Assembly: GCA_030740335.1 (NCBI GenBank)
Contig: JASLXL010000263.1
Location: 1 to 7,836, forward strand
Reading direction: 5' to 3'
Source: SAR202 cluster bacterium
GTDB lineage: Bacteria; Chloroflexota; Dehalococcoidia; SAR202; CAJWER01
Length of the DNA: 7,836 nucleotides
This document shows, piece by piece, positions 1-7,836 of this stretch. The notes beneath the pieces were generated by a model, which was not told where the DNA came from, searched no databases, and worked only from the letters and a program-made list of their open reading frames with translations. The position numbers and the translations under genes are program-made. Positions within the stretch are counted from its first letter, which is position 1; the number at the start of each line of letters is the position of its first letter.

Positions 1-751
1 GGGCAAGCCACTCTGCGTCTCTAAGGGCAAGATAGTCGTTGGCGGTGATGATATGCACGCGCCTGCCCTGCGTCGCGTGAAGAATGGCGGGGAAAGCAGC
101 GGCTATGGTCTTGCCCTCGCCCGCCTCCATCTCGACGACGCACCCTCGATAAAGTAGTTCGCCAGCTATCAGTTGCTCGTCCGTGGTCCTCAGCCGTAAT
201 GTCCCATCGGTATCGTGTGCCTCCAGCGCCTCGTAGAACCGCGCGGGTAGATGGATGTTCGTGCCGTAATCGGCAGCGCCTCGCTCTGCCACATAGACCA
301 TGCCCCACACGATCTCGGCGTCCACACTGCTTAACTTCATCTCTGCGACTGCGTCCCCGATGTGACGCCTGAATGCCAGAGAATCGATGAGCGATTCATC
401 TGAGTGGAAGTCGGGTACTGATCGGTAAGAGCCCCGAGTGAAGATTGATTTCGAAATGTTGTGTAGTGGATGTGGCGGGTCCTGTGCGAAGACACGCCAC
501 GCCCCGAGGCGACGTGAGACCGTCTCGACTACGATACCGAATACCCAGGGCAGCGCGTCGCCCTGGATATCGGAGAGGGCGTCTTTCAACTCAGTGTCGG
601 AGTATCGCGAGAACCCGAGACTACGCGCCTCGGCAGGAAGGCGGGAGACGCCTTCAGAAGGTCGCAGATCTGCTAGGGTCGCAAGTCTGGAAGCTAGCCT
701 GCTTGGCCAGCCACCGGGTTTGGAGTCCGGGAATGGTACGACTCTCTCCAA
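1..751 (-). CDS. SecA-like preprotein translocase ATPase, N-terminal part (cut by window edge)
   Basis: This is the first 250 residues of a SecA-family motor, the ATPase that drives proteins through SecYEG. The Walker A region reads EMEAGEGKT (residues about 207-215), followed by VHIITANDYLALRDAEWLA (232-250), which is diagnostic of SecA NBD1. An upstream stretch matches the usual SecA N-terminal helices: SDTELK near 51-56 (compare LSDEELK) and a LPWVFGIVVETVSRRLG helix at 67-83 (compare LPEAFAVVREAAKRVLG). Canonical SecA has Walker A near residue 102-108; here it is near 210, because about 105 residues are inserted between that helix and TDEQLIAGELL. No ATG is available after the upstream in-frame stop. 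The start chosen is TTG at 751-749, preceded by AGGAG (760-764) with 8-nt spacing. The divergence suggests an accessory SecA or SecA2-like protein rather than the housekeeping copy, but only the N-terminus is visible. It lies 38 nt downstream of the broken stress-protein gene and may be cotranscribed with the genes above it. Confidence 0.9.
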   Translation of the reverse strand, partial: MERVVPFPDSKPGGWPSRLASRLATLADLRPSEGVSRLPAEARSLGFSRYSDTELKDALSDIQGDALPWVFGIVVETVSRRLGAWRVFAQDPPHPLHNISKSIFTRGSYRSVPDFHSDESLIDSLAFRRHIGDAVAEMKLSSVDAEIVWGMVYVAERGAADYGTNIHLPARFYEALEAHDTDGTLRLRTTDEQLIAGELLYRGCVVEMEAGEGKTIAAAFPAILHATQGRRVHIITANDYLALRDAEWLA

Positions 752-759
752 GCAAAATA

Positions 760-764
760 CTCCT
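760..764 (-). promoter_or_regulatory. Ribosome binding site of the SecA-like gene
   Basis: The minus strand reads AGGAG here, 8 nt before TTG at 751-749. No ATG or GTG precedes the homologous region in frame, so this site decides in favour of the TTG start. Confidence 0.7.
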
Positions 765-789
765 GTGCTGGCCAGACCCAGATCCTAGA

Positions 790-1076
790 CTACACTTTAT
801 GCGGCGCTCGAATTTCCGGGGGACTCACAACCAGGACTGGATCCCCAGTGCCTCGTATGACGGCTTCGGACACACTACCCATAGTCAGTCGAGCAATGCC
901 GGAACGCCCGTGAGTCGCGAGTGCCACGATGTCATGTGGCAACTCTCGCGCCAGTTCCACGATCTCCTTAGCTGGATGGCCGGCTAGCAATCGCCACTGG
1001 ACACTTTTGACACATAGGGAAGAATCGCCTCGGACTGATCAGATCCATCCAACGGAACCAATATTTTCCCGATCAC
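790..1076 (-). pseudogene. Universal stress protein (UspA family), internally deleted and frameshifted
   Basis: Two pieces of one UspA-type domain lie next to each other in different frames. From GTG at 1076-1074, one frame reads MIGKILVPLDGSDQSEAILP and continues for 30 residues to a TAG at 984-986; this is the first beta strand, the nucleotide-binding Asp region and the first helix. The next piece, in another frame, reads LLAGHPAKEIVELARELPHD and then ATHGRSGIARLTMGS, ending PVLVVSPPEIRAPHKV with its stop at 790. ATHG-x9-GS is the ATP-binding loop of the family, here with Ala at the first Gly position. A normal domain has about 140 residues; here the two parts total about 95, so some 50-60 middle residues (strands 2 and 3 and helix 2) are missing. 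The C-terminal piece alone could be translated from TTG at 990 as 66 residues, but it would lack the adenine-binding N-terminus. The gene follows the GNAT stop by about 11 nt, so it probably belonged to the same transcript. It is most likely dead; an assembly or sequencing error is possible. Confidence 0.8.
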
Positions 1077-1087
1077 CGTACTGTGTC

Positions 1088-1735
1088 TCACGCTCCTGGT
1101 TCGGTTCCGTCGTTTCGGATAGATTGTACTATGGACAGATACTCGTCGCTGCTGTCTGCAGGGACGAGTCGGTACACTCCTTCGTACACCTCACGGACGA
1201 TCTCGACGATTTCCTCTGGTCCTGGTCTTTTCGTAACCGGCACTATGACCAGGTCGAGGCTCCTGGGCGTGAGTCCCTGCGTATCCGGCACGCGGTATTC
1301 GCACGGTACGATCCAGGCATCCCAGTGTTGACGGTAGTAACGCCACAAAATACCTTCAGGCTCAAGTTCCGATATGATGTAGTCCAAGGGTCGCCCATGC
1401 TCGCCCCGGAGAGCGTCCAACACCTTTGACCGCAGCGCGGAATACACGCCCCTGCGCCGCATGTCCTTGCGGACCGCAGAGTAGAGTAGCATTGCGGCGT
1501 TCAGCTTCCCGAGCCGGGCTCCTGCCACCACTGCCAACATCCCACTATCGCCAAAAGCGCACAACATTCTGGTCATAGCTCGATCGTCGTGCGATGGATC
1601 TATTGTTTCTATAAACGTCGCCAGGTCTTCCACCTTAGCTGGACCGAGGTTTTCCTGCAGCAGGCTGTGGGCTTCGACGGCCGCCCCGCCGCCCGTCACC
1701 CATTTGACAACTAGATCGGCGGCCTCCATGACCAT
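1088..1735 (-). CDS. GNAT-like N-acyltransferase
   Basis: This 215-residue soluble protein has features of the GCN5-related acetyltransferase fold, which transfers an acyl group from acyl-CoA to an amine. The best evidence is a strand (AAMLLYSAVRKD, about 80-91) leading into RRRGVYSALRSKVLDAL (93-109). This fits motif A, the R-x-x-G-x-G/A pyrophosphate-binding loop plus helix, although the last loop position is Tyr98 instead of Gly/Ala. A later strand, LDYIISELEPEG (117-128), and an aromatic stretch with WRYYRQHWDAW (131-141) fit the second half of the fold. About 60 C-terminal residues extend beyond a minimal 150-residue GNAT. The ATG overlaps the stop of the adenylating-enzyme gene by one base (TGATG), and GAGGAGG lies 5 nt upstream, so translation is probably coupled. 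The neighbouring enzyme may supply an activated acyl group or the amine substrate; the substrate is unknown. Family assignment is moderate. Confidence 0.65.
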   Translation of the reverse strand: MVMEAADLVVKWVTGGGAAVEAHSLLQENLGPAKVEDLATFIETIDPSHDDRAMTRMLCAFGDSGMLAVVAGARLGKLNAAMLLYSAVRKDMRRRGVYSALRSKVLDALRGEHGRPLDYIISELEPEGILWRYYRQHWDAWIVPCEYRVPDTQGLTPRSLDLVIVPVTKRPGPEEIVEIVREVYEGVYRLVPADSSDEYLSIVQSIRNDGTEPGA

Positions 1736-3015
1736 CAGCCCCTCCTCAAATCGATGACACGTTTTTCCTTCCGTGCATCCCGGAAATGGGCATCGTCGAC
1801 AAAGGCCAATTCCAACTCCACGAATTTCCCAGCGAACAGATAGGCCAGATCGGGTTCCTTGCCAGTTAGTGAGCGTCTTATAATCTGCTCATCATCAGCC
1901 AGGTTATTCGGAAGCACGATGGTCATCTTGTCTCCGCCATCGTCGGTGAGTACTACCTCTATCGGCCCCAGCGTTCTCATCTCGCGGTATGCTGCCTTCA
2001 GGATACCGTCGTAGGACACCTTGACGCCGAGCAGCGACACACTGTCGTCCGTTCTCCCGATCACATCCACTCTGGGGTCTGGTAGGCCACAAGTACAGGG
2101 TCCTGGCCGCAACTTCACCAAATCGCCCAGGGCATACCTGAGCAACGGAAGCCCTTCTTGATGCAGGGTGGTTACCAATAATCTTCCGTGGGTGTCGTCC
2201 GGTTCCGCAGTCGAAATCTCGAGGAAATTCTGTTCATTGAACAGATGTATGCCGTCGTGGGCCCGGCACTCCATTCCCAGGGCTGATGTCTCGGATGCAC
2301 CGTAATAGGCGAAAACCTCGAGCCCTAGGTTGTCGACAAGGCGCGCGTGAGCTGCACTTCGAAGTGGCTCGCCAACGTAAACCAGTGAACGTAATTTCGC
2401 ATTCCTATGCTCCGCGAGTCCGTGAACCAGGATATCTAGACATCGTTCTAATACCGAAGGCACCGTGATGATGGCAGTGGGGTCCAGCACAAGTAGATCA
2501 TTGATTGTCGCTGCCGGGTCGGGACCTGCTGAAAGGGCGTAGGCCTCTGCAACCCCCATCTCTTCGAGAGCGCGGGTGAATGAGACCATCAGCGTAAGCG
2601 GCCCAGTATCCAGGCACGCAACACGGTCATTGTCGCCAAGACCGCAAACACGGAACAGGCGCGCTAGGTACTTGGACTCCGCGATCTCATCGCGATAGGT
2701 GATCACCCGCCTCTTGCGATGTCCTGTGGTTCCTGAAGACGCCTCAAGGTCCACTACCTCGTCTGCCGTGGCAAAGGCCTCGTCGGCGAGTTGGTAGAAG
2801 GCGTCTCCTTCAAGGGGGGCCAGCGCTTCCAATAGCCTCAACGGGTCACATGTCTGCAGGTCGCGTATAGAGATTCCAGCCTTGGCCATGGACTCGCGAT
2901 ATATGCTGAATTGAGAGTGGGCATGGATCAGGATGGGGCGCAGTGCGGCTCGGGCGCCTACGAAGGGCTCCCCGAGCGTCTTCACAAGCGTATTCGTGAT
3001 CGCGTGCCCTTCCAT
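1735..3015 (-). CDS. PaaK/LuxE-like adenylate-forming enzyme (acyl-CoA ligase or acyl-protein synthetase family)
   Basis: This 426-residue member of the ANL superfamily activates a carboxylic acid as acyl-AMP, usually then passing it to CoA or another thiol. The ordered motifs are all present: P-loop ASSGTTG with a following Lys (92-101); SLVYVGEPL (210-218); YYGASETSALGME (237-249), the A5 motif; LVTTLHQEGLPLLRYALGD (280-298), the A7 region with Asp298; a CTCG pair of cysteines (307-310) as in PaaK; IGRTDDSVSLLGVKVS (319-334), the A8 hinge; and a C-terminal KEKRV (416-420) supplying the likely catalytic Lys. Length and motif spacing match phenylacetate-CoA ligase-type enzymes (about 430). 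Nothing in the sequence shows that phenylacetate is the substrate. It starts 46 nt after the K+ channel gene. The ribosome binding site is weak (GGA, 4 nt before ATG), so expression may depend on readthrough. It should be catalytically competent, unlike the shortened relative at 4151-4966. Confidence 0.88.
   Translation of the reverse strand: MEGHAITNTLVKTLGEPFVGARAALRPILIHAHSQFSIYRESMAKAGISIRDLQTCDPLRLLEALAPLEGDAFYQLADEAFATADEVVDLEASSGTTGHRKRRVITYRDEIAESKYLARLFRVCGLGDNDRVACLDTGPLTLMVSFTRALEEMGVAEAYALSAGPDPAATINDLLVLDPTAIITVPSVLERCLDILVHGLAEHRNAKLRSLVYVGEPLRSAAHARLVDNLGLEVFAYYGASETSALGMECRAHDGIHLFNEQNFLEISTAEPDDTHGRLLVTTLHQEGLPLLRYALGDLVKLRPGPCTCGLPDPRVDVIGRTDDSVSLLGVKVSYDGILKAAYREMRTLGPIEVVLTDDGGDKMTIVLPNNLADDEQIIRRSLTGKEPDLAYLFAGKFVELELAFVDDAHFRDARKEKRVIDLRRG
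1741..1747 (-). promoter_or_regulatory. Strong ribosome binding site of the GNAT-like gene
   Basis: The minus strand reads GAGGAGG inside the last codons of the adenylating-enzyme gene, 5 nt before ATG at 1735. It favours this ATG over the second ATG two codons later (11-nt spacing) and supports coupled translation across the TGATG overlap. Confidence 0.65.
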
Positions 3016-3061
3016 GTATCCGTACTATGGCAGCCGAACTTCGACGCGACACGGCCACCTC

Positions 3062-4126
3062 TCACGACAATAGGCCTTGCAAGGCTTTCCAGGAGAGCCG
3101 AGTCTTGGCGACATACACCAAACCATCCCCCTCAGCGAGATTGATCCCGTCAAAGCTCACCTTCGCAGTGCGGTTCCTTACGACCCCGACCAGGTTAATT
3201 CCGTTGTCAAGCAGTTGCTTGGCTACGCCGACATAGGGCTTGGCCTCAGTCGGAGTGGATTCCACGAAGGTGGTAGAGATTGTCCCTTCGATCTGATTGC
3301 TTGTGATCGCCTGAGTCACCATGCTCACGCCAGGATCCTGAGCCTCCTGAACCAGCAGATTGTTGGCTATCTGCTGGGTATAGACCAGACTGACGCGGTC
3401 CGACACGTTGAAAAGTGCAGTATGCTTAAGGTCAAGACACTCCACAACGATGTCTATTTCCGGGTTCATGTTGTTCATCACGAACGCAATCGAGGCCACA
3501 AGGCTGTCACTCCTCGAATCCTCGTGGCTGGGGCTAAGGATGATCGCCTGTCCTGCACGCGCGATGTTGGCCCGTTTGTGGGTTTCCTCATCAAGAGGGT
3601 CTCCGCGAATGAACGATACGCCGTCGATTTGGAACGGCAACTCCATGAGATTGTCGGACATGATGACTACTTCCGCAGACCCGTGATGCACGTCGTCACG
3701 ATACTCTTTGATGACCGACCGAACCCGGGACTCGCCCGGGAAATTGATGATCATCAAATGGCCTCTGAGGCCCGATTTACCCATACCCGTGCGCTCCTTT
3801 TGCCGGGAATCCGCGATCCAATCCACCGCCATCCCGATCGTGGTCGTGAATGTCGCCAGGCCCACCAAGACAATGAAAAACGCCGTTCCGATCCGTCCGC
3901 CCAGGGTGGTAGACGAGATATCGCCGTATCCAATTGTAGTGATTGACACCACGCTAAACCATAGACCGTCCCAGATCGTGATTTCGGGGCGTTCCACACG
4001 ATCGAAAAAATAGAATGTTAGCGTGTTCCCTACAATGCTAATTGTGATGACTCCGAGCAGGACCGCAACGCCAACCTCCTTGCGGCGTCGCATTTGCCGG
4101 ATCATTCGTGTCAGTGAGTAGAACAT
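3062..4126 (-). CDS. Two-helix K+ channel with RCK (TrkA-N/TrkA-C) ligand-sensing domain
   Basis: This 354-residue protein has the layout of MthK-type channels. A basic N-terminus (RMIRQMRRRK, 7-16) is followed by transmembrane helix 1 (about 17-41), a pore helix (about 52-62), the selectivity filter TTIGYGD (63-69), and transmembrane helix 2 (about 80-103). A cytoplasmic Rossmann-like RCK domain starts at HLMIINFPGES (123-133) and runs to about 255. A TrkA-C-like domain covers about 270-340 and ends in GDGLVYVAKT. Tetramers pass K+ through the inner membrane and open or close on binding a ligand such as Ca2+, nucleotide or a dinucleotide; the ligand here is unknown. The dinucleotide-binding glycine pattern is replaced by NFPGES, resembling MthK more than NAD-binding TrkA. 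The ATG at 4126 has only a distant GAGG about 12 nt upstream. It lies 24 nt after the shortened PaaK-like gene and 46 nt before the intact one, so it is embedded in an operon of acyl-activating enzymes, which is unusual for a housekeeping channel. Confidence 0.93.
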   Translation of the reverse strand: MFYSLTRMIRQMRRRKEVGVAVLLGVITISIVGNTLTFYFFDRVERPEITIWDGLWFSVVSITTIGYGDISSTTLGGRIGTAFFIVLVGLATFTTTIGMAVDWIADSRQKERTGMGKSGLRGHLMIINFPGESRVRSVIKEYRDDVHHGSAEVVIMSDNLMELPFQIDGVSFIRGDPLDEETHKRANIARAGQAIILSPSHEDSRSDSLVASIAFVMNNMNPEIDIVVECLDLKHTALFNVSDRVSLVYTQQIANNLLVQEAQDPGVSMVTQAITSNQIEGTISTTFVESTPTEAKPYVGVAKQLLDNGINLVGVVRNRTAKVSFDGINLAEGDGLVYVAKTRLSWKALQGLLS

Positions 4127-4150
4127 CGTAGGTGTAGTCCTCGCCCGTAA

Positions 4151-4966
4151 TTATTCAACTCGTTTGGCCAGGGGGAGCCCGAAGTCCTCTGCCGTATCCT
4201 CGGTTTCTATGCGTAGTAGCGGCTGAACCAGGTTATGCAGCGCCGTCACTACCAGACACCCAGCAGCCGACCTTTCGTACAAGTAGAGGTCATTATAGAG
4301 TATCCATTGCCGCCCATCGGTCGAGTGCCCCAGGAACCCAAGTTCGTCGACGTGGAACACGTCGAGCTGGCCTCGTTCCATGAACCGTACACCCCTATCA
4401 AAAGTGACACAGACCTGCGTTTCCGTCGGAATATCTGGACTAGTCAGCCAGTTGCTTAGCACAACCACAAGATCTGAAGACATCTCCTGTAGAATCTCTC
4501 GTGTATGCAGCCGGTTCCTGTCCGAGAACACGTGGGCCTGAATACCCACGTATCCCAGGATTGTGCTGATCTCAGCCGCAAAGTATCGCTGTTCCGGCGA
4601 TGAAATCACCGCGCAACTCCGTAGCTGCGACTCGGGATCAACCTCACGAAGGGCGTCGCGAAACACGTCGTATCGTGCGCCCGTCTGCTCCACCCCTTCC
4701 GCAACGGCCAGTGTTTTTCGCACACGTGCCGTCCGCGGTCCTACGATCCATTCAACTTCATCGGGCCGAGCCAAAGTGTCGGTCAGTCGCTGCTGTCTTA
4801 GTTCCGCAAGAGGTGTGATCGGAAGTGACCCAAATTCCGACAGGCTATCGACGCTGCGGCGTCCGCCCAACTTGGAGTCGTAGAACGTCGTGCCCGCCGC
4901 TGCACCCACGACGCGGTCCAGCAGCTCGACCACGTTCGCTGGGGTGTGGTAAGTCTTGTGCGCCAT
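4151..4966 (-). CDS. Truncated, motif-poor PaaK-like protein (possible pseudo-adenylating partner)
   Basis: This 271-residue protein is not an obvious family member, but its ends align by eye with PaaK-type enzymes. Residues 28-59 (FYDSKLGGRRSVDSLSEFGS, then LPITPLAELRQQ) match the N-terminal helix pair and the 'LPiT/lr' signature preceding the P-loop. Residues 208-257 (LGFLGHSTDGRQWILYNDL, then LVVTALHNLVQPLLRIETED) match the A5-A7 region of the neighbour, where the corresponding text ends LVTTLHQEGLPLLRYALGD. The SSGTTG P-loop is absent; the equivalent spot reads VGPRTARVRKTL (75-86). YGxSE is missing, and the protein stops just after A7, so the hinge and catalytic-Lys C-terminal domain are gone. 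The ORF is intact with a good GAGG site 6 nt before ATG, which argues for a working non-catalytic or differently catalytic protein rather than decay. It starts 9 nt after the transglutaminase-like gene. It may partner with or regulate the intact ligase. Confidence 0.6.
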   Translation of the reverse strand: MAHKTYHTPANVVELLDRVVGAAAGTTFYDSKLGGRRSVDSLSEFGSLPITPLAELRQQRLTDTLARPDEVEWIVGPRTARVRKTLAVAEGVEQTGARYDVFRDALREVDPESQLRSCAVISSPEQRYFAAEISTILGYVGIQAHVFSDRNRLHTREILQEMSSDLVVVLSNWLTSPDIPTETQVCVTFDRGVRFMERGQLDVFHVDELGFLGHSTDGRQWILYNDLYLYERSAAGCLVVTALHNLVQPLLRIETEDTAEDFGLPLAKRVE

Positions 4967-4975
4967 GGGTCGCCT

Positions 4976-6379
4976 CTAGTCCGTGCCAGTCCCAGGTTCG
5001 CGAAGCTGGATTACAACCAGGCCAGCCTCATGTCCAGGACCGTGGCAGTCGTCGTAGCGCGTCAATAGGTGTTCCTTTGCGGCCATCACCTTTGCTGCGG
5101 CCACCGGGTGCGCCTCAACAAAGGCCGATCCCAGGCCTGTCTCCATCTCCCACGTGGGAGATACCTCGCATTCAAGACCTGCTCTGTCGCATACCTGAGT
5201 GTACTCGCGCGTCAGCCGCTCCAGAGTCTTTTCTGCTCGGTACACCAGGGGAGTTACCATGTAGTCATCGGTGATACACAGGCCAAGCTCGTTGTCGAAG
5301 ACCTGCACTAGGTCAACGTGGGTAATCCAGCCTTCCAGGGCGAAGAACACCTTCTCAGGGATGTCCTGAGCTACGCGATGGTAGTAGAACTCCTCCTCGT
5401 AAACAGCCATCTTGACAGGTACAAAGGTCCTTGATTCATAATTCAGTAACCGCTCGGCTGAATCACCCACTTCGAACAGGAAGGGCACATTGCCATTTGT
5501 GGCGTCTACCAGCACTGGAACCCCTTCGATGTGATAGAGCAGGGCAGTGTGTTGCCAGTAACGCATGTGACGGTGCGCAAACCGGAAGTCGATCGTGCTC
5601 AGCAGCTCCCTCAGCCGGTCTTCAGGAACTGGGCCGGGTACATTCGCTCCCGCCAGTACATACTCCGACTCGATGCCAAAGTGATCAGTCAGGAACTTGA
5701 GGGCCTGGACCTTCTCTGAGCAGATTCCTCCCCCGCCGTCCATGATGCTCCGTACCGTTTCGTCACCCGACTTGTATACGAGCTTGTGGCCGACAAACCT
5801 CGAGTAGTTCTCAAAGGGGCTCTCCCAGATCCGGCTCGCCAAAGCCCTGACCAGATCTACTTTCCACTCGGGGGAATTGTGCTGCTCGATTTCAGCGGCC
5901 CGCTCATCTCCATAGGCCGACTCAAGGGTTTCGGCTACAAATGCGCGGTATTCCGCCGAATGCCTTTCCCATCTACGTCTGGCGAAGCCAGTCCAATTGC
6001 GTTCGTACCCGACGCCCAAACGGTTGATCTCCACTCTAGCCAGCAGGACCTCCTTGTCTCCGAATATTAGAGGTCGGAACACCGGCTGTTCTTCTAATTC
6101 TATGGGGGTCTCGCCCTGCCTGAAGCTTACGCCGTTGAACATCACACCCAGATAGCCGTCATCGCTGCTCAGATATACCAGGTCCTGCATCGAGAGGAGC
6201 GTCTCGGACGACTCTGGCGCAATTCGTGAATCCTCCATGAGCCTGTTGATATCTGGCTTTTTAAGATAGCTGTCCAAAAGAGAGCAAAGCGGCAACTCTT
6301 CGTCGCCAGGGAATATTCTGACTTGGAAGGACCGGACTGTGACCGTGTCGGTAACTTGCAATATGTGTTTGAGCGCCAT
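4976..6379 (-). CDS. Transglutaminase/arylamine N-acetyltransferase-like Cys-His-Asp protein
   Basis: This 467-residue first gene of the operon has a central papain-like core. MDGGGGICSEKVQALKFLTD (213-232) places Cys220 at the start of a helix, as in transglutaminase-like (GvCreka) and arylamine N-acetyltransferase (GGyCfEqn) proteins. WQHTALLYHIEGVPVLVD (275-292), followed by ATNGNVPFLF, supplies His277 and Asp292 on adjacent strands, completing a Cys-His-Asp triad. Such proteins cleave or form amide bonds or transfer acyl groups through a Cys thioester. No signal peptide or membrane helix is seen, so it is probably cytoplasmic. About 160 residues before and 165 after the core are unrecognised. 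ATG at 6379 has AAGG 8 nt upstream and lies about 22 nt below the likely transcription start. Neighbouring adenylating genes suggest it could accept or transfer an activated acyl group, as NAT-like amide synthases do in antibiotic pathways; this is inference. A peptidase role is equally possible. Confidence 0.7.
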   Translation of the reverse strand: MALKHILQVTDTVTVRSFQVRIFPGDEELPLCSLLDSYLKKPDINRLMEDSRIAPESSETLLSMQDLVYLSSDDGYLGVMFNGVSFRQGETPIELEEQPVFRPLIFGDKEVLLARVEINRLGVGYERNWTGFARRRWERHSAEYRAFVAETLESAYGDERAAEIEQHNSPEWKVDLVRALASRIWESPFENYSRFVGHKLVYKSGDETVRSIMDGGGGICSEKVQALKFLTDHFGIESEYVLAGANVPGPVPEDRLRELLSTIDFRFAHRHMRYWQHTALLYHIEGVPVLVDATNGNVPFLFEVGDSAERLLNYESRTFVPVKMAVYEEEFYYHRVAQDIPEKVFFALEGWITHVDLVQVFDNELGLCITDDYMVTPLVYRAEKTLERLTREYTQVCDRAGLECEVSPTWEMETGLGSAFVEAHPVAAAKVMAAKEHLLTRYDDCHGPGHEAGLVVIQLREPGTGTD

Positions 6380-6408
6380 TTCAATGACCTTCGCCGAGGG
6401 CTCAGAAC

Positions 6409-6414
6409 ATTATA
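6409..6414 (-). promoter_or_regulatory. -10 promoter box of the five-gene operon
   Basis: The minus strand reads a perfect TATAAT at this site, about 30 nt before ATG at 6379, which would give a leader of roughly 20-25 nt. The -35 position is poor (TTCGGG-like at 16-17 nt spacing), so an activator or an extra sigma contact may be needed. No clear operator repeat is seen around it. Confidence 0.6.
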
Positions 6415-6543
6415 GAGAATCCTCAGATAGCCCGAACCGACTAGCGAGCGGACAGAATACTGTTGCTAAAAATCAAGTAATGCTGCAGGAAAATTACGTG
6501 TAATGCATATAGGAATGGTCACCCGGACCCTAGTAGGTGCAAG

Positions 6544-6548
6544 AGGAG
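6544..6548 (+). promoter_or_regulatory. Ribosome binding site of the small membrane protein
   Basis: AGGAG lies 8 nt before ATG at 6557. It decides between this start and earlier in-frame starts at 6503 and 6515, and it is the main support for the gene being real. Confidence 0.55.
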
Positions 6549-6556
6549 CAAGAGCG

Positions 6557-6709
6557 ATGCTAGCGGGAAGAAACAGCATAGTTCTGATGGCCGTCACACT
6601 AATAACAGCCGGGCTGCTGTTGCGTTGGGACCTGGTGGACTGGATCATAGATTCGGTGGGAGCGATCCTTGTTCTGGGAGGTGCGCAGCAAGCGTACTCG
6701 CGATCGTAA
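6557..6709 (+). CDS. Small two-helix membrane protein (hypothetical)
   Basis: The only plausible plus-strand gene in the window encodes 50 residues. Two hydrophobic segments, IVLMAVTLITAGLLL (8-22) and WIIDSVGAILVLGGA (29-43), are separated by a short charged turn, RWDLVD, giving a helical hairpin with a short Ser/Arg C-terminus. The frame is open from further upstream, but ATG at 6557 is chosen because AGGAG (6544-6548) sits 8 nt before it, and upstream candidates would add an unlikely basic leader. Tiny membrane proteins of this shape are common and mostly uncharacterised. It is transcribed away from the five-gene operon across a 177-nt gap; I do not see a convincing promoter for it. No function can be assigned. 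Confidence 0.55.
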   Translation: MLAGRNSIVLMAVTLITAGLLLRWDLVDWIIDSVGAILVLGGAQQAYSRS

Positions 6710-6831
6710 AGCCCTTGAGCGCCAGAAGCCACCAGACCAGCCCGTAGGTAGCGGAGGATTCCAGCCGTCTCTCATGTTGGAGAGGCCTCGAAGTATCCGG
6801 GGCGGGGGACCCGCATCTATCTAGCGGTGGA

Positions 6832-6902
6832 GACGGTCTCTCTCCCCCGGACCTTTCTCACCCGCTTGGGGTGACATGGAAAAGGGAGATATTGACGGTC
6901 TC
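6832..6902. repeat. Imperfect palindrome flanked by a perfect 9-bp direct repeat (MITE-like)
   Basis: GACGGTCTC occurs at 6832-6840 and again at 6894-6902. Between the copies are 53 bases with nested inverted repeats: TCTCCC (6841-6846) with GGGAGA (6884-6889), TTTC (6854-6857) with GAAA (6879-6882), and TCACCC (6858-6863) with GGGTGA (6869-6874) around a GCTTG loop. A palindromic core bracketed by a short direct repeat is what insertion of a miniature element with target duplication would leave. It is also reminiscent of the pyrimidine-rich CTCTCCCCC...GGGGAG intergenic repeats seen in many bacterial genomes. It is too small to encode anything. Confidence 0.45.
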
Positions 6903-7213
6903 CACACCCCATAATCTAATGACGCCACTTCACAATTGCATATGGCTGTGCCGTGTGTTGCCGTGCTCGAGCACGAAATCCCGCCATGGCCATCAGCGTT
7001 AGCAGTGATACCGATTAATGGCCAACACCACCAAATAGAATGGTTTCCCCCGTGTCCTTTATGTGGGTCGGCTGATACTCTTTTATTGTACCAGTTCCAA
7101 TACTTCTCCGAAAAACGGAGGGGTAACATCGAGCGAAAGCCTGCTACTGAGATAACGGTTGCAATAGCCTGAGATGAAAAGGGTTGGCGACGAAGGAACT
7201 GGCCAGCCGACCC

Positions 7214-7250
7214 AAATAATGACGTGCATGCTCCGGATCGAGCCCACGTC
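7214..7250 (-). terminator. Possible rho-independent terminator downstream of degV
   Basis: Read on the minus strand, GACGTG (7250-7245) pairs with CACGTC (7226-7221), and inside it GCTC (7243-7240) pairs with GAGC (7233-7230). ATTATTT follows directly (7220-7214). The stem has internal mismatches and the T tract is interrupted. It lies about 170 nt after the degV stop, so it is a moderate candidate. Confidence 0.35.
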
Positions 7251-7422
7251 CGCGATCGTCTCTTTTAATTAATCGGCGACGCAGAACTCTGTCAGGCCTG
7301 GTCGCGAACGCGAATTCAGGGCGACATCTCCCTCACGGCTCGGGGGCGGTCTTGGGGATGCCTGCAAAGCTGGCTCCGGGACCGGCCCCGGACTTCGGGA
7401 GAGTGAGTATGGAGGCCACGCT

Positions 7423-7836
7423 CTATCCCTGCGCCCAAAAGGCGAGGCCGAGGAGGCCTGTGCCGGTGTGGGCTCCCATGACCGGCGTGAATTCGCTCAC
7501 GAAGAGCCCGCGGCAGTCAAACTTAAGCTCCACAGCTTGACGAAGCTCCTGGGCGTCTTCAGGGCAGTCGCCGTGCATGACCCCGACGTGAACCGGTCGG
7601 TCGCCGACGCGCTTTCGCATTGCATCCATGAGCCTGCGCATCGCTCGGGCCCTTGTGCGCGGACGGCCAATGGCGCGGACCTCGCCACTCGCAAGCTCAA
7701 ACATGGGTTTGAGACCAAGTAAAGACGCGCTCGCATATGCGAGTCTAGGCACGCGCCCTCCCTTCCACACGTAGTACAACGTGTCCAGGAACGCGACAAG
7801 CGACACTTTATCCGCAACCTCTCGGGCCGCCTTTAC
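7423..7836 (-). CDS. DegV-family fatty-acid-binding protein, C-terminal half (cut by window edge)
   Basis: The visible 137 residues are the second half of a DegV protein, which binds one fatty acid between its two domains; in Gram-positive bacteria FakB proteins of this family present the fatty acid to FakA kinase. Evidence is the run LDTLYYVWKGGRVPRLAYAS (compare the family's LeyLkkGGRi), then LLGLKPMFELASGEVRAIGR (compare LLniKPil.l.dGev.p..r), PVHVGVMHGDCPEDAQEL, and the C-terminal VSEFTPVMGAHTGTGLLGLA, whose HTGxG loop lines the ligand carboxylate in the family. A full-length protein is about 280 residues. The frame is open to the window edge, so the true start lies outside; the GTG at 7806 is internal. 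It is well separated from the operon, so a shared function is not indicated. Confidence 0.92.
   Translation of the reverse strand, partial: VKAAREVADKVSLVAFLDTLYYVWKGGRVPRLAYASASLLGLKPMFELASGEVRAIGRPRTRARAMRRLMDAMRKRVGDRPVHVGVMHGDCPEDAQELRQAVELKFDCRGLFVSEFTPVMGAHTGTGLLGLAFWAQG

Follow-up and report, generated by a model that had tools for sequence, protein, structure and literature searches.

A second SecA and a putative thiol enzyme are among the most constant parts of a modular gene neighbourhood in Chloroflexota including SAR202

Introduction

Accessory SecA2 systems of Gram-positive bacteria include ones in which SecA2 goes with serine-rich surface proteins. A different kind of neighbourhood, the PspA-CesT/Tir operons as presented in the sections of PMC11237479 used here, carries genes for DUF350, DUF4178, a lipoprotein and a ligand-sensing K+ channel along with an ATP-grasp ligase, an S-adenosylmethionine (AdoMet) decarboxylase or a spermidine-synthase-like protein. 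The same sections propose a role of these operons in membrane dynamics and describe variants without the PspA-CesT/Tir dyad (PMC11237479). Here we analyse a 7,836-nucleotide stretch of DNA from a SAR202 cluster bacterium (contig JASLXL010000263.1, positions 1 to 7,836; hereafter the window), which bears five consecutive minus-strand genes for a thiol enzyme (TGL), a short PaaK relative (pPaaK), a K+ channel (RCK), an AMP-forming ligase (LIG) and a GNAT-like protein. We show that this run belongs to a larger conserved locus that continues into a divergent second SecA.

Results

The five genes represent one version of a larger unit

A species-genome collection was scanned with a TGL alignment, two exact peptide patterns and then tblastn, yielding 42 loci, all from metagenome-assembled genomes titled Chloroflexi/Chloroflexota, Dehalococcoidia or SAR202; because the peptide patterns were exact, divergent relatives such as that in genome G078 were missed. 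Gene-family profiles seeded from the window and the loci (E<=1e-5, with a 45-bit floor for counts) located a SecA gene downstream of TGL in 37 loci, LPX, a Ser/Arg/Gly-rich lipoprotein-like protein encoded downstream of the second SecA, in 31, and GB, a partner protein of ~360 residues, in 30, followed by DUF350 (26), DUF3326 (25), an NspC-like decarboxylase (22), RCK (20), pPaaK (12), LIG and GNAT (10 each) and DegV (6). When the analysis is restricted to the 33 loci in which 9.5 kb or more of downstream DNA is available, the counts are 30 for SecA, 29 each for LPX and GB, 25 for DUF350, 14 for RCK, 9 for pPaaK and 8 each for LIG and GNAT. Six of the 42 loci (L001, L002, L007, L017, L019 and L026) contain every one of the five window families in the order of the window, and four of the 33 long loci do so; L001 is the window's near twin, with 91% identity in TGL. 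Fifteen long loci have no pPaaK, RCK, LIG or GNAT adjoining TGL, and the three long loci lacking a SecA gene beside TGL (L016, L039 and L040) have it elsewhere in the genome. Besides the named parts, DUF4178 and PspA, no other ORF (open reading frame) family near the locus recurs in more than 8 of the 42 loci.

The G078 locus (L092), with its very divergent TGL, keeps the order TGL-pPaaK-LIG-GNAT-SecA-LPX-GB, contiguous on one strand and with small overlaps or gaps, and L083 forms the one-strand run TGL-pPaaK-NspC-DUF3326-LIG-SecA-LPX, with DUF350 and DUF4178 convergent on the opposite strand. Related arrangements are NspC-DUF3326-LIG-SecA-LPX with convergent DUF350-DUF4178 (L090 and L091), TGL-pPaaK-NspC-DUF3326-LIG-SecA (L032 and L038, the latter with other genes between LIG and SecA) and TGL-NspC-DUF3326-SecA (L036 and L042). 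A TGL tree, built by a quick method with a midpoint root for drawing and with gene states counted from 40 of the 42 loci, places the five-gene form on several long branches of its unresolved part; the NspC-containing L032, L038, L036 and L042 lie across the root from it. Genome G320 (L016 and L075) has TGL ~120 kb, in record coordinates, from a contiguous pPaaK-RCK-LIG-GNAT-USP-SecA-LPX run.

We conclude that the five-gene order is conserved far beyond chance and that the set is one version of a larger unit. TGL-SecA-LPX-GB makes up the most constant part of this unit, and the PaaK pair, the channel and the GNAT-like protein are optional modules. A preliminary description of this DNA had treated the five genes as a system in themselves; that view gives way to one in which the SecA paralogue is the most constant partner of TGL, LPX comes next and the other genes are optional. 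Its grouping of acyl activation and thiol chemistry with a K+ channel that has a ligand-sensing domain is borne out as a real conserved neighbourhood. The homologues are clearly not scattered, given SecA in 37 of 42 loci, the G078 order and the co-occurrence described below, and a neighbourhood search of the kind that it had suggested, started from TGL, recovered a conserved locus, with the full five-family order confined to the six loci named above.

TGL, the second SecA and LPX are inherited together

Co-occurrence was scored in 197 genomes drawn from one order. TGL is present in 40 of them, one copy each, and the N-terminal domain of the second SecA (E<1e-12) in 39, of which 37 carry TGL; LPX follows with 36 TGL carriers among 38 genomes, the NspC-like protein with 33 among 34 and DUF3326 with 32 among 33. 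All 18 genomes with pPaaK have TGL, on another contig in G021, G022, G358 and G369. TGL, the SecA N-terminal domain and LPX thus co-occur almost perfectly in these 197 genomes. The SecA N-terminal profile matched 98 genomes at E<=1e-4; the cut-off of 1e-12 was set after the gap had been seen, the weakest of the 39 counted matches being at 1.4e-13 and the next at 4e-8 and weaker, and these weaker matches are mostly frames of ~860-1010 residues that we took to be canonical SecA. In the two genomes with SecA and LPX and no TGL, G339 and G397, the contigs break off at SecA or GNAT. Three TGL genomes have no strong match to the SecA N-terminus: G011 and G320 have a second SecA by its motor part, and the contig of G451 ends soon after RCK (L004). 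In wider samples, TGL was found in 3 of 294 genomes of a class sample, G078 among them, and in 2 of 400 genomes of a phylum-wide sample.

Genes of the window

The features of the window are as follows.

4976-6379, minus strand: TGL, thiol enzyme, ORF of 467 residues
4151-4966, minus strand: pPaaK, short PaaK relative, ORF of 271 residues
3062-4126, minus strand: RCK, K+ channel, ORF of 354 residues
1735-3015, minus strand: LIG, AMP-forming ligase, ORF of 426 residues
1088-1735, minus strand: GNAT-like protein, ORF of 215 residues, overlapping LIG by 1 nt
795-1091, minus strand: remnant of a universal-stress-protein (USP) gene of the tandem type, with a Usp domain in 790-990, recognised by comparison with L001
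2-751, minus strand: SecA2-like, N-terminal part of the divergent second SecA, including the start of the DEAD domain; the window ends inside the gene
6409-6414, minus strand: TATAAT, possible weak -10 box, 29 nt upstream of the TGL start
7423-7836, minus strand: C-terminal part of a DegV/FakB-type gene, upstream of TGL

All five ORFs lie where the preliminary description had put them, and their coordinates bear out the spacings that it gave (9, 24 and 46 nt and a 1-nt overlap). Its limits for the unit, 1088-6414, are too short, the unit continuing through the USP remnant into the SecA paralogue at 2-751. The -10 box that it had placed in front of the operon is a perfect TATAAT at 6414-6409; a single promoter is not supported, since the window contains three TATAAT hexamers with 1.6 expected, such a hexamer lies in the 150 nt upstream in only 4 of the 42 related loci, and a two-hexamer scan found no promoter and no paired -35 at 6409-6414.

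In comparison with L001, the closest relative, synonymous codon differences outnumber nonsynonymous ones in each of the five genes: 56/40 in TGL, 31/25 in pPaaK (269 codons), 28/10 in RCK, 69/52 in LIG and 38/34 in GNAT, as raw counts rather than dN/dS (nonsynonymous to synonymous rate) ratios. The USP gene, intact in L001 (308 residues) and with a homologue of 295 residues in L007, has suffered an internal deletion of ~615 bp in the window, where the remnant between GNAT and SecA consists of two pieces, which correspond to bases 1-98 and 714-922 in the L001 gene. At the other end, the DegV and TGL ORFs overlap at the TGL start in L003, L005, L006, L007 and L023, so that the DegV gene can belong to the operon; DegV/FakB is a fatty-acid-binding family, and the overlap hints at fatty acyl groups as substrate. 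The overlap is 4 nt in L003, L005, L006 and L007, and the DegV ORF of L007 is short (170 residues).

TGL carries an invariant Cys-His-Asp triad

The description of TGL as a Cys-His-Asp protein holds: C220, H277 and D292 are invariant in 44 of 44 aligned homologues, and the triad is predicted to lie on a core of the NAT/transglutaminase type. The protein looks cytosolic; its N-terminal ~120 residues possibly form a beta-grasp domain, and its C-terminal part is MEDS-like in some members. Pfam gave no match to the window TGL at E<=1, and a single one of 36 members matched Acetyltransf_2, at E 0.094; these 36 sequences (alignment A1) are the window and 35 of the 120 matches listed from 828 homologues. 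The best fold matches of TGL are arylamine N-acyltransferases and the amide synthase GdmF. The TGL of G078 is very divergent (303 bits), and 49 homologues (E<=0.001), its own relatives, constitute a second group.

An intact ligase is paired with a conserved pseudoenzyme

Only LIG and RCK among the four genes TGL, pPaaK, RCK and LIG have a Pfam match above cut-off in the window. LIG matches the AMP-binding family at 43.9 bits (cut-off 29.9) and, as first described, is an intact PaaK-like enzyme with complete motifs: an SSGTT loop with a lysine, YYGxxET, a CxC pair and an invariant C-terminal RK. In 11 of 11 sequences S93-S94-G95-T96-T97-K101, Y238-G239-E242 and K416 are invariant, K416 being the putative catalytic lysine. 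Its closest relatives in the PDB are BT_0428 and PaaK; at 79.6 of the 646.3 bits required, it misses the PaaK equivalog cut-off TIGR02155.

The pPaaK protein has a predicted PaaK fold and had been called a shortened PaaK relative, which is accurate for its length and fold. It is an intact, conserved pseudoenzyme family: the ATP-binding Ser/Thr/Gly loop is absent from the 30 sequences of alignment A2 (the window and 29 of 103), and the proteins stop where the mobile C-terminal domain of PaaK would start. That pPaaK is a broken gene was considered and rejected, given the conservation of the family. Both LIG and pPaaK match the PaaK-type ligases AjiA1, NatL2 and ClxA, which we take to be ligases of natural-product pathways.

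The channel is well supported and the GNAT label is weak

The assignment of RCK as a K+ channel with a cytosolic RCK domain was upheld by both of its Pfam domains, Ion_trans_2 (47.8 bits, cut-off 22.5) and Slo-like_RCK (30.5 bits, cut-off 24), and by the TIGYGD filter, of which TIGYG is invariant in 18 of 18 aligned sequences; its relatives in the PDB are BK/Slo and MthK. The GNAT-like protein is a real ORF with homologues in 10 of the 42 loci, and its label is weak: neither the window protein nor the homologues of L003 and L092 match a GNAT family in Pfam, and the homologue of L019, the third of those scanned, reaches 17.5 bits with PF00583, under the cut-off of 20.7.

The second SecA is distinct from canonical SecA

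In L001 the second SecA has 1088 residues, with DEAD motor, PP-binding, P-loop and wing/scaffold Pfam domains all above cut-off; that of G078 has 886. The motor residues are invariant in 12 aligned sequences, and most members have an N-terminal region of their own with a few invariant residues (25 aligned). All of 22 tested genomes have one SecA of the canonical kind and one divergent SecA. The divergent copies score 390-549.5 bits with TIGR00963, under its cut-off of 800 bits, which the canonical copy passes in 21 genomes; in G013 the canonical copy is split across two contigs. The L001 protein reaches no SecA or SecA2 cut-off, with 428.7 of 725, 397.6 of 930, 452.3 of 1085 and 370.1 of 1100 bits for the SecA2 families, and PDB profile scores fail to separate SecA1 from SecA2 (the two top scores being 632 and 624 bits, with mycobacterial SecA2 at 510).

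The start of the gene is uncertain: in L001 (L001:15914) it is a GTG, three codons before the one equivalent to the TTG at window position 751, and the window has GTA at the position of that GTG. In G018 an extra SecA-like fragment (C1:344871-346133; a 571-residue frame, 600 bits) immediately precedes the canonical secA.

Partner genes outside the window

The composition of LPX was taken from 29 of 31 members, two with X being excluded. DUF350 and DUF4178 genes are convergent to the run in relatives. The DUF350 membrane protein (PF03994, E 4e-50 in L008) has two DUF350 stretches, which would fit the form with eight transmembrane segments; its gene lies beyond the window, and is present in L073, a 12-kb continuation of the window's closest relative. 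DUF4178 occurs in 18 and PspA in 12 of the 42 loci.

The L083 protein that resembles the carboxynorspermidine decarboxylase NspC finds its best solved relatives among NspC-type enzymes (239 bits, versus 65.5 for the best diaminopimelate decarboxylase), and no match in the 197 genomes passes the NspC cut-off. Because DUF3326 is present in 33 of the 34 genomes with an NspC-like gene, the two look like a functional couple. They are paired in the absence of TGL in G387 (L089). PF03435, which we use as a presumed proxy family for the carboxynorspermidine dehydrogenase partner, is above cut-off in 17 of 22 genomes.

Discussion

With gene content, order, co-inheritance and catalytic residues established and folds predicted, we consider that the locus probably serves the cell envelope. 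We see an even chance that it is an envelope-maintenance locus in which cytosolic acyl/amide chemistry is coupled to a dedicated export motor. With the dead pPaaK to steer or stabilise it, LIG would activate a carboxylic acid to an acyl-AMP (and thioester), and the TGL cysteine would transfer the acyl group to an amine, provided in many lineages by the NspC-like decarboxylase, to give an amide; that LIG and TGL together form an amide is plausible, at rather less than even chances. The product or modified protein would be a part of the envelope, and the extra SecA would move envelope cargo, most simply LPX, an export step that we put forward tentatively. RCK could couple the state of the pathway to the K+ permeability of the membrane, by analogy with PSP/polyamine neighbourhoods. 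A more specific form of this proposal, in which modification precedes export, is unlikely as a whole: TGL would modify LPX on its Ser/Arg/Gly-rich tail with an acyl group or amine, and export of the product would fall to a dedicated SecA distinct from SecA1 and the named SecA2 families. The group would be made by LIG/pPaaK and in many lineages by the NspC-like protein and DUF3326, while RCK would report the state of the pathway. Such a system would be a different-chemistry analogue of accessory Sec systems that glycosylate serine-rich proteins before export.

Several observations weigh against the proposed envelope function and its steps. The roles given to LIG, TGL, SecA and RCK are read from their genes, and Fisher p values for co-occurrence with TGL (8e-15 to 5e-34) ignore kinship between genomes. 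The N-terminal region of the second SecA is short or missing in L014, L022, L030 and G078, and one LPX member matches DUF1190, which along with Ctha_1186 is a lipoprotein of the PSP/polyamine neighbourhoods, at E 0.12, below cut-off. PspA occurs in only 12 of the 42 loci and was not found in L073. NspC and DUF3326 were not found in the draft genomes G001, G002, G009, G011, G320 and G355, so that this source of the amine is not universal; the six include the two kinds of carrier closest to the window and have RCK in that slot where the locus was read. A convincing PF03435 match (E 3e-14 or better) is limited to G005 and G007, two of the 18 tested genomes with the NspC-like gene, which makes the normal spermidine route doubtful.

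Small-molecule biosynthesis is a rather unlikely account, in which the joint product of LIG and TGL is an acyl-amine (an N-acyl polyamine-like lipid or signal, for instance), the GNAT-like protein modifies or detoxifies it, and the channel and SecA genes are merely co-regulated neighbours. The best folds of TGL, arylamine N-acyltransferases and GdmF, would suit it, as would the matches of LIG and pPaaK to AjiA1, NatL2 and ClxA and the separate pPaaK-NspC-DUF3326-LIG run in L079, on a contig other than that of TGL. However, no carrier protein, polyketide synthase or nonribosomal peptide synthetase domain was seen among 20 proteins scanned, with no genome-wide search, and in 15 of the 33 long loci TGL stands without pPaaK, RCK, LIG or GNAT beside it, so that SecA and LPX, rather than the ligases, are its constant partners. 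We find it less probable still that vertical inheritance alone accounts for the locus, as a stable region in which a catabolic acyl-ligase operon came to lie by chance beside a secA duplicate. TGL is indeed confined to a minority of genomes, whether these were sampled from the order (40 of 197), the class (3 of 294) or the phylum (2 of 400), but conservation ends sharply, with other ORF families in at most 8 of 42 loci, end branches of TGL reach up to 0.7 changes per site, SecA and LPX persist where other modules of the run are swapped, and the very divergent G078 retains the order.

Channels and thiol enzymes serve as effectors in some defence systems, and the patchy presence of TGL (40 of 197 genomes) would fit an anti-phage defence or conflict system that uses acyl chemistry and has a channel as its effector. 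We regard this as very improbable. Each of the 40 carriers has a single TGL copy, the constant partners are SecA and a lipoprotein-like protein, and PADLOC models searched against the five window proteins gave a sole match at E<=0.1, DpdC on GNAT only (E 0.027), with no stretch passing alone; we rejected it as chance-level. Of the functions that had been suggested for the five genes, namely signalling, stress response, defence and a biosynthetic cluster with self-protection, stress response is the closest to the envelope-maintenance function favoured here, and defence is unsupported.

If that function is correct, a group of Chloroflexota to which SAR202 bacteria belong, represented here by metagenome-assembled genomes, carries a dedicated second export motor genetically bound to a thiol acyltransferase-like enzyme. 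The locus would then offer a testable entry to the cargo of second SecAs outside Gram-positives, to the chemistry of DUF350/DUF4178/K+-channel/polyamine stress loci and to the purpose of split PaaK pairs, an active enzyme with a dead partner.

Comparison with described systems

The preliminary description did not recognise the five-gene set as a described system, and a search of openly licensed PubMed Central papers likewise turned up no account of it. LIG carries the motifs of the PaaK phenylacetate-CoA ligase family and the pPaaK model has the PaaK fold, but LIG scores far below PaaK and pPaaK is without the loop and the C-terminal domain. TGL shares 6-16% identity with the listed structures of arylamine N-acetyltransferase, GdmF and transglutaminase and, unlike them, has extra N- and C-terminal parts. 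With the accessory SecA2 systems of Gram-positive bacteria the locus has in common a second SecA that is encoded next to cytosolic enzymes and to a Ser-rich protein of the envelope type. It differs in that its SecA stays below every SecA2 cut-off and has, in L001, an N-terminal region of its own, that neither SecY2 nor a glycosyltransferase is among the neighbours scanned, and that the neighbour is lipoprotein-like.

The neighbourhoods of section 19, groups 2 and 3, of PMC11237479 share with the locus DUF350, DUF4178, a lipoprotein-like protein, a K+ channel with an intracellular ligand-sensing domain (a feature of group 3; 20 of 42 loci), a polyamine-type enzyme in many relatives and, close by in 12 of 42 loci, PspA. 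The main text of that paper has 0 occurrences of SecA and 0 of transglutaminase, whereas the locus has a SecA and a thiol enzyme. No ATP-grasp glutathionylspermidine-synthetase-like ligase or spermidine synthase was found among 20 proteins scanned, with no genome-wide search. The thiol enzyme and the PaaK-type ligases may take the place of the ATP-grasp ligase of those neighbourhoods, and the NspC-like pyridoxal-phosphate-dependent decarboxylase that of the AdoMet decarboxylase or spermidine synthase. Since PspA was not found in L073, we do not file the locus as a member of the PSP/polyamine neighbourhoods; by analogy, it looks like a Chloroflexota relative of the PSP/DUF350/polyamine neighbourhoods to which a second SecA has been added.

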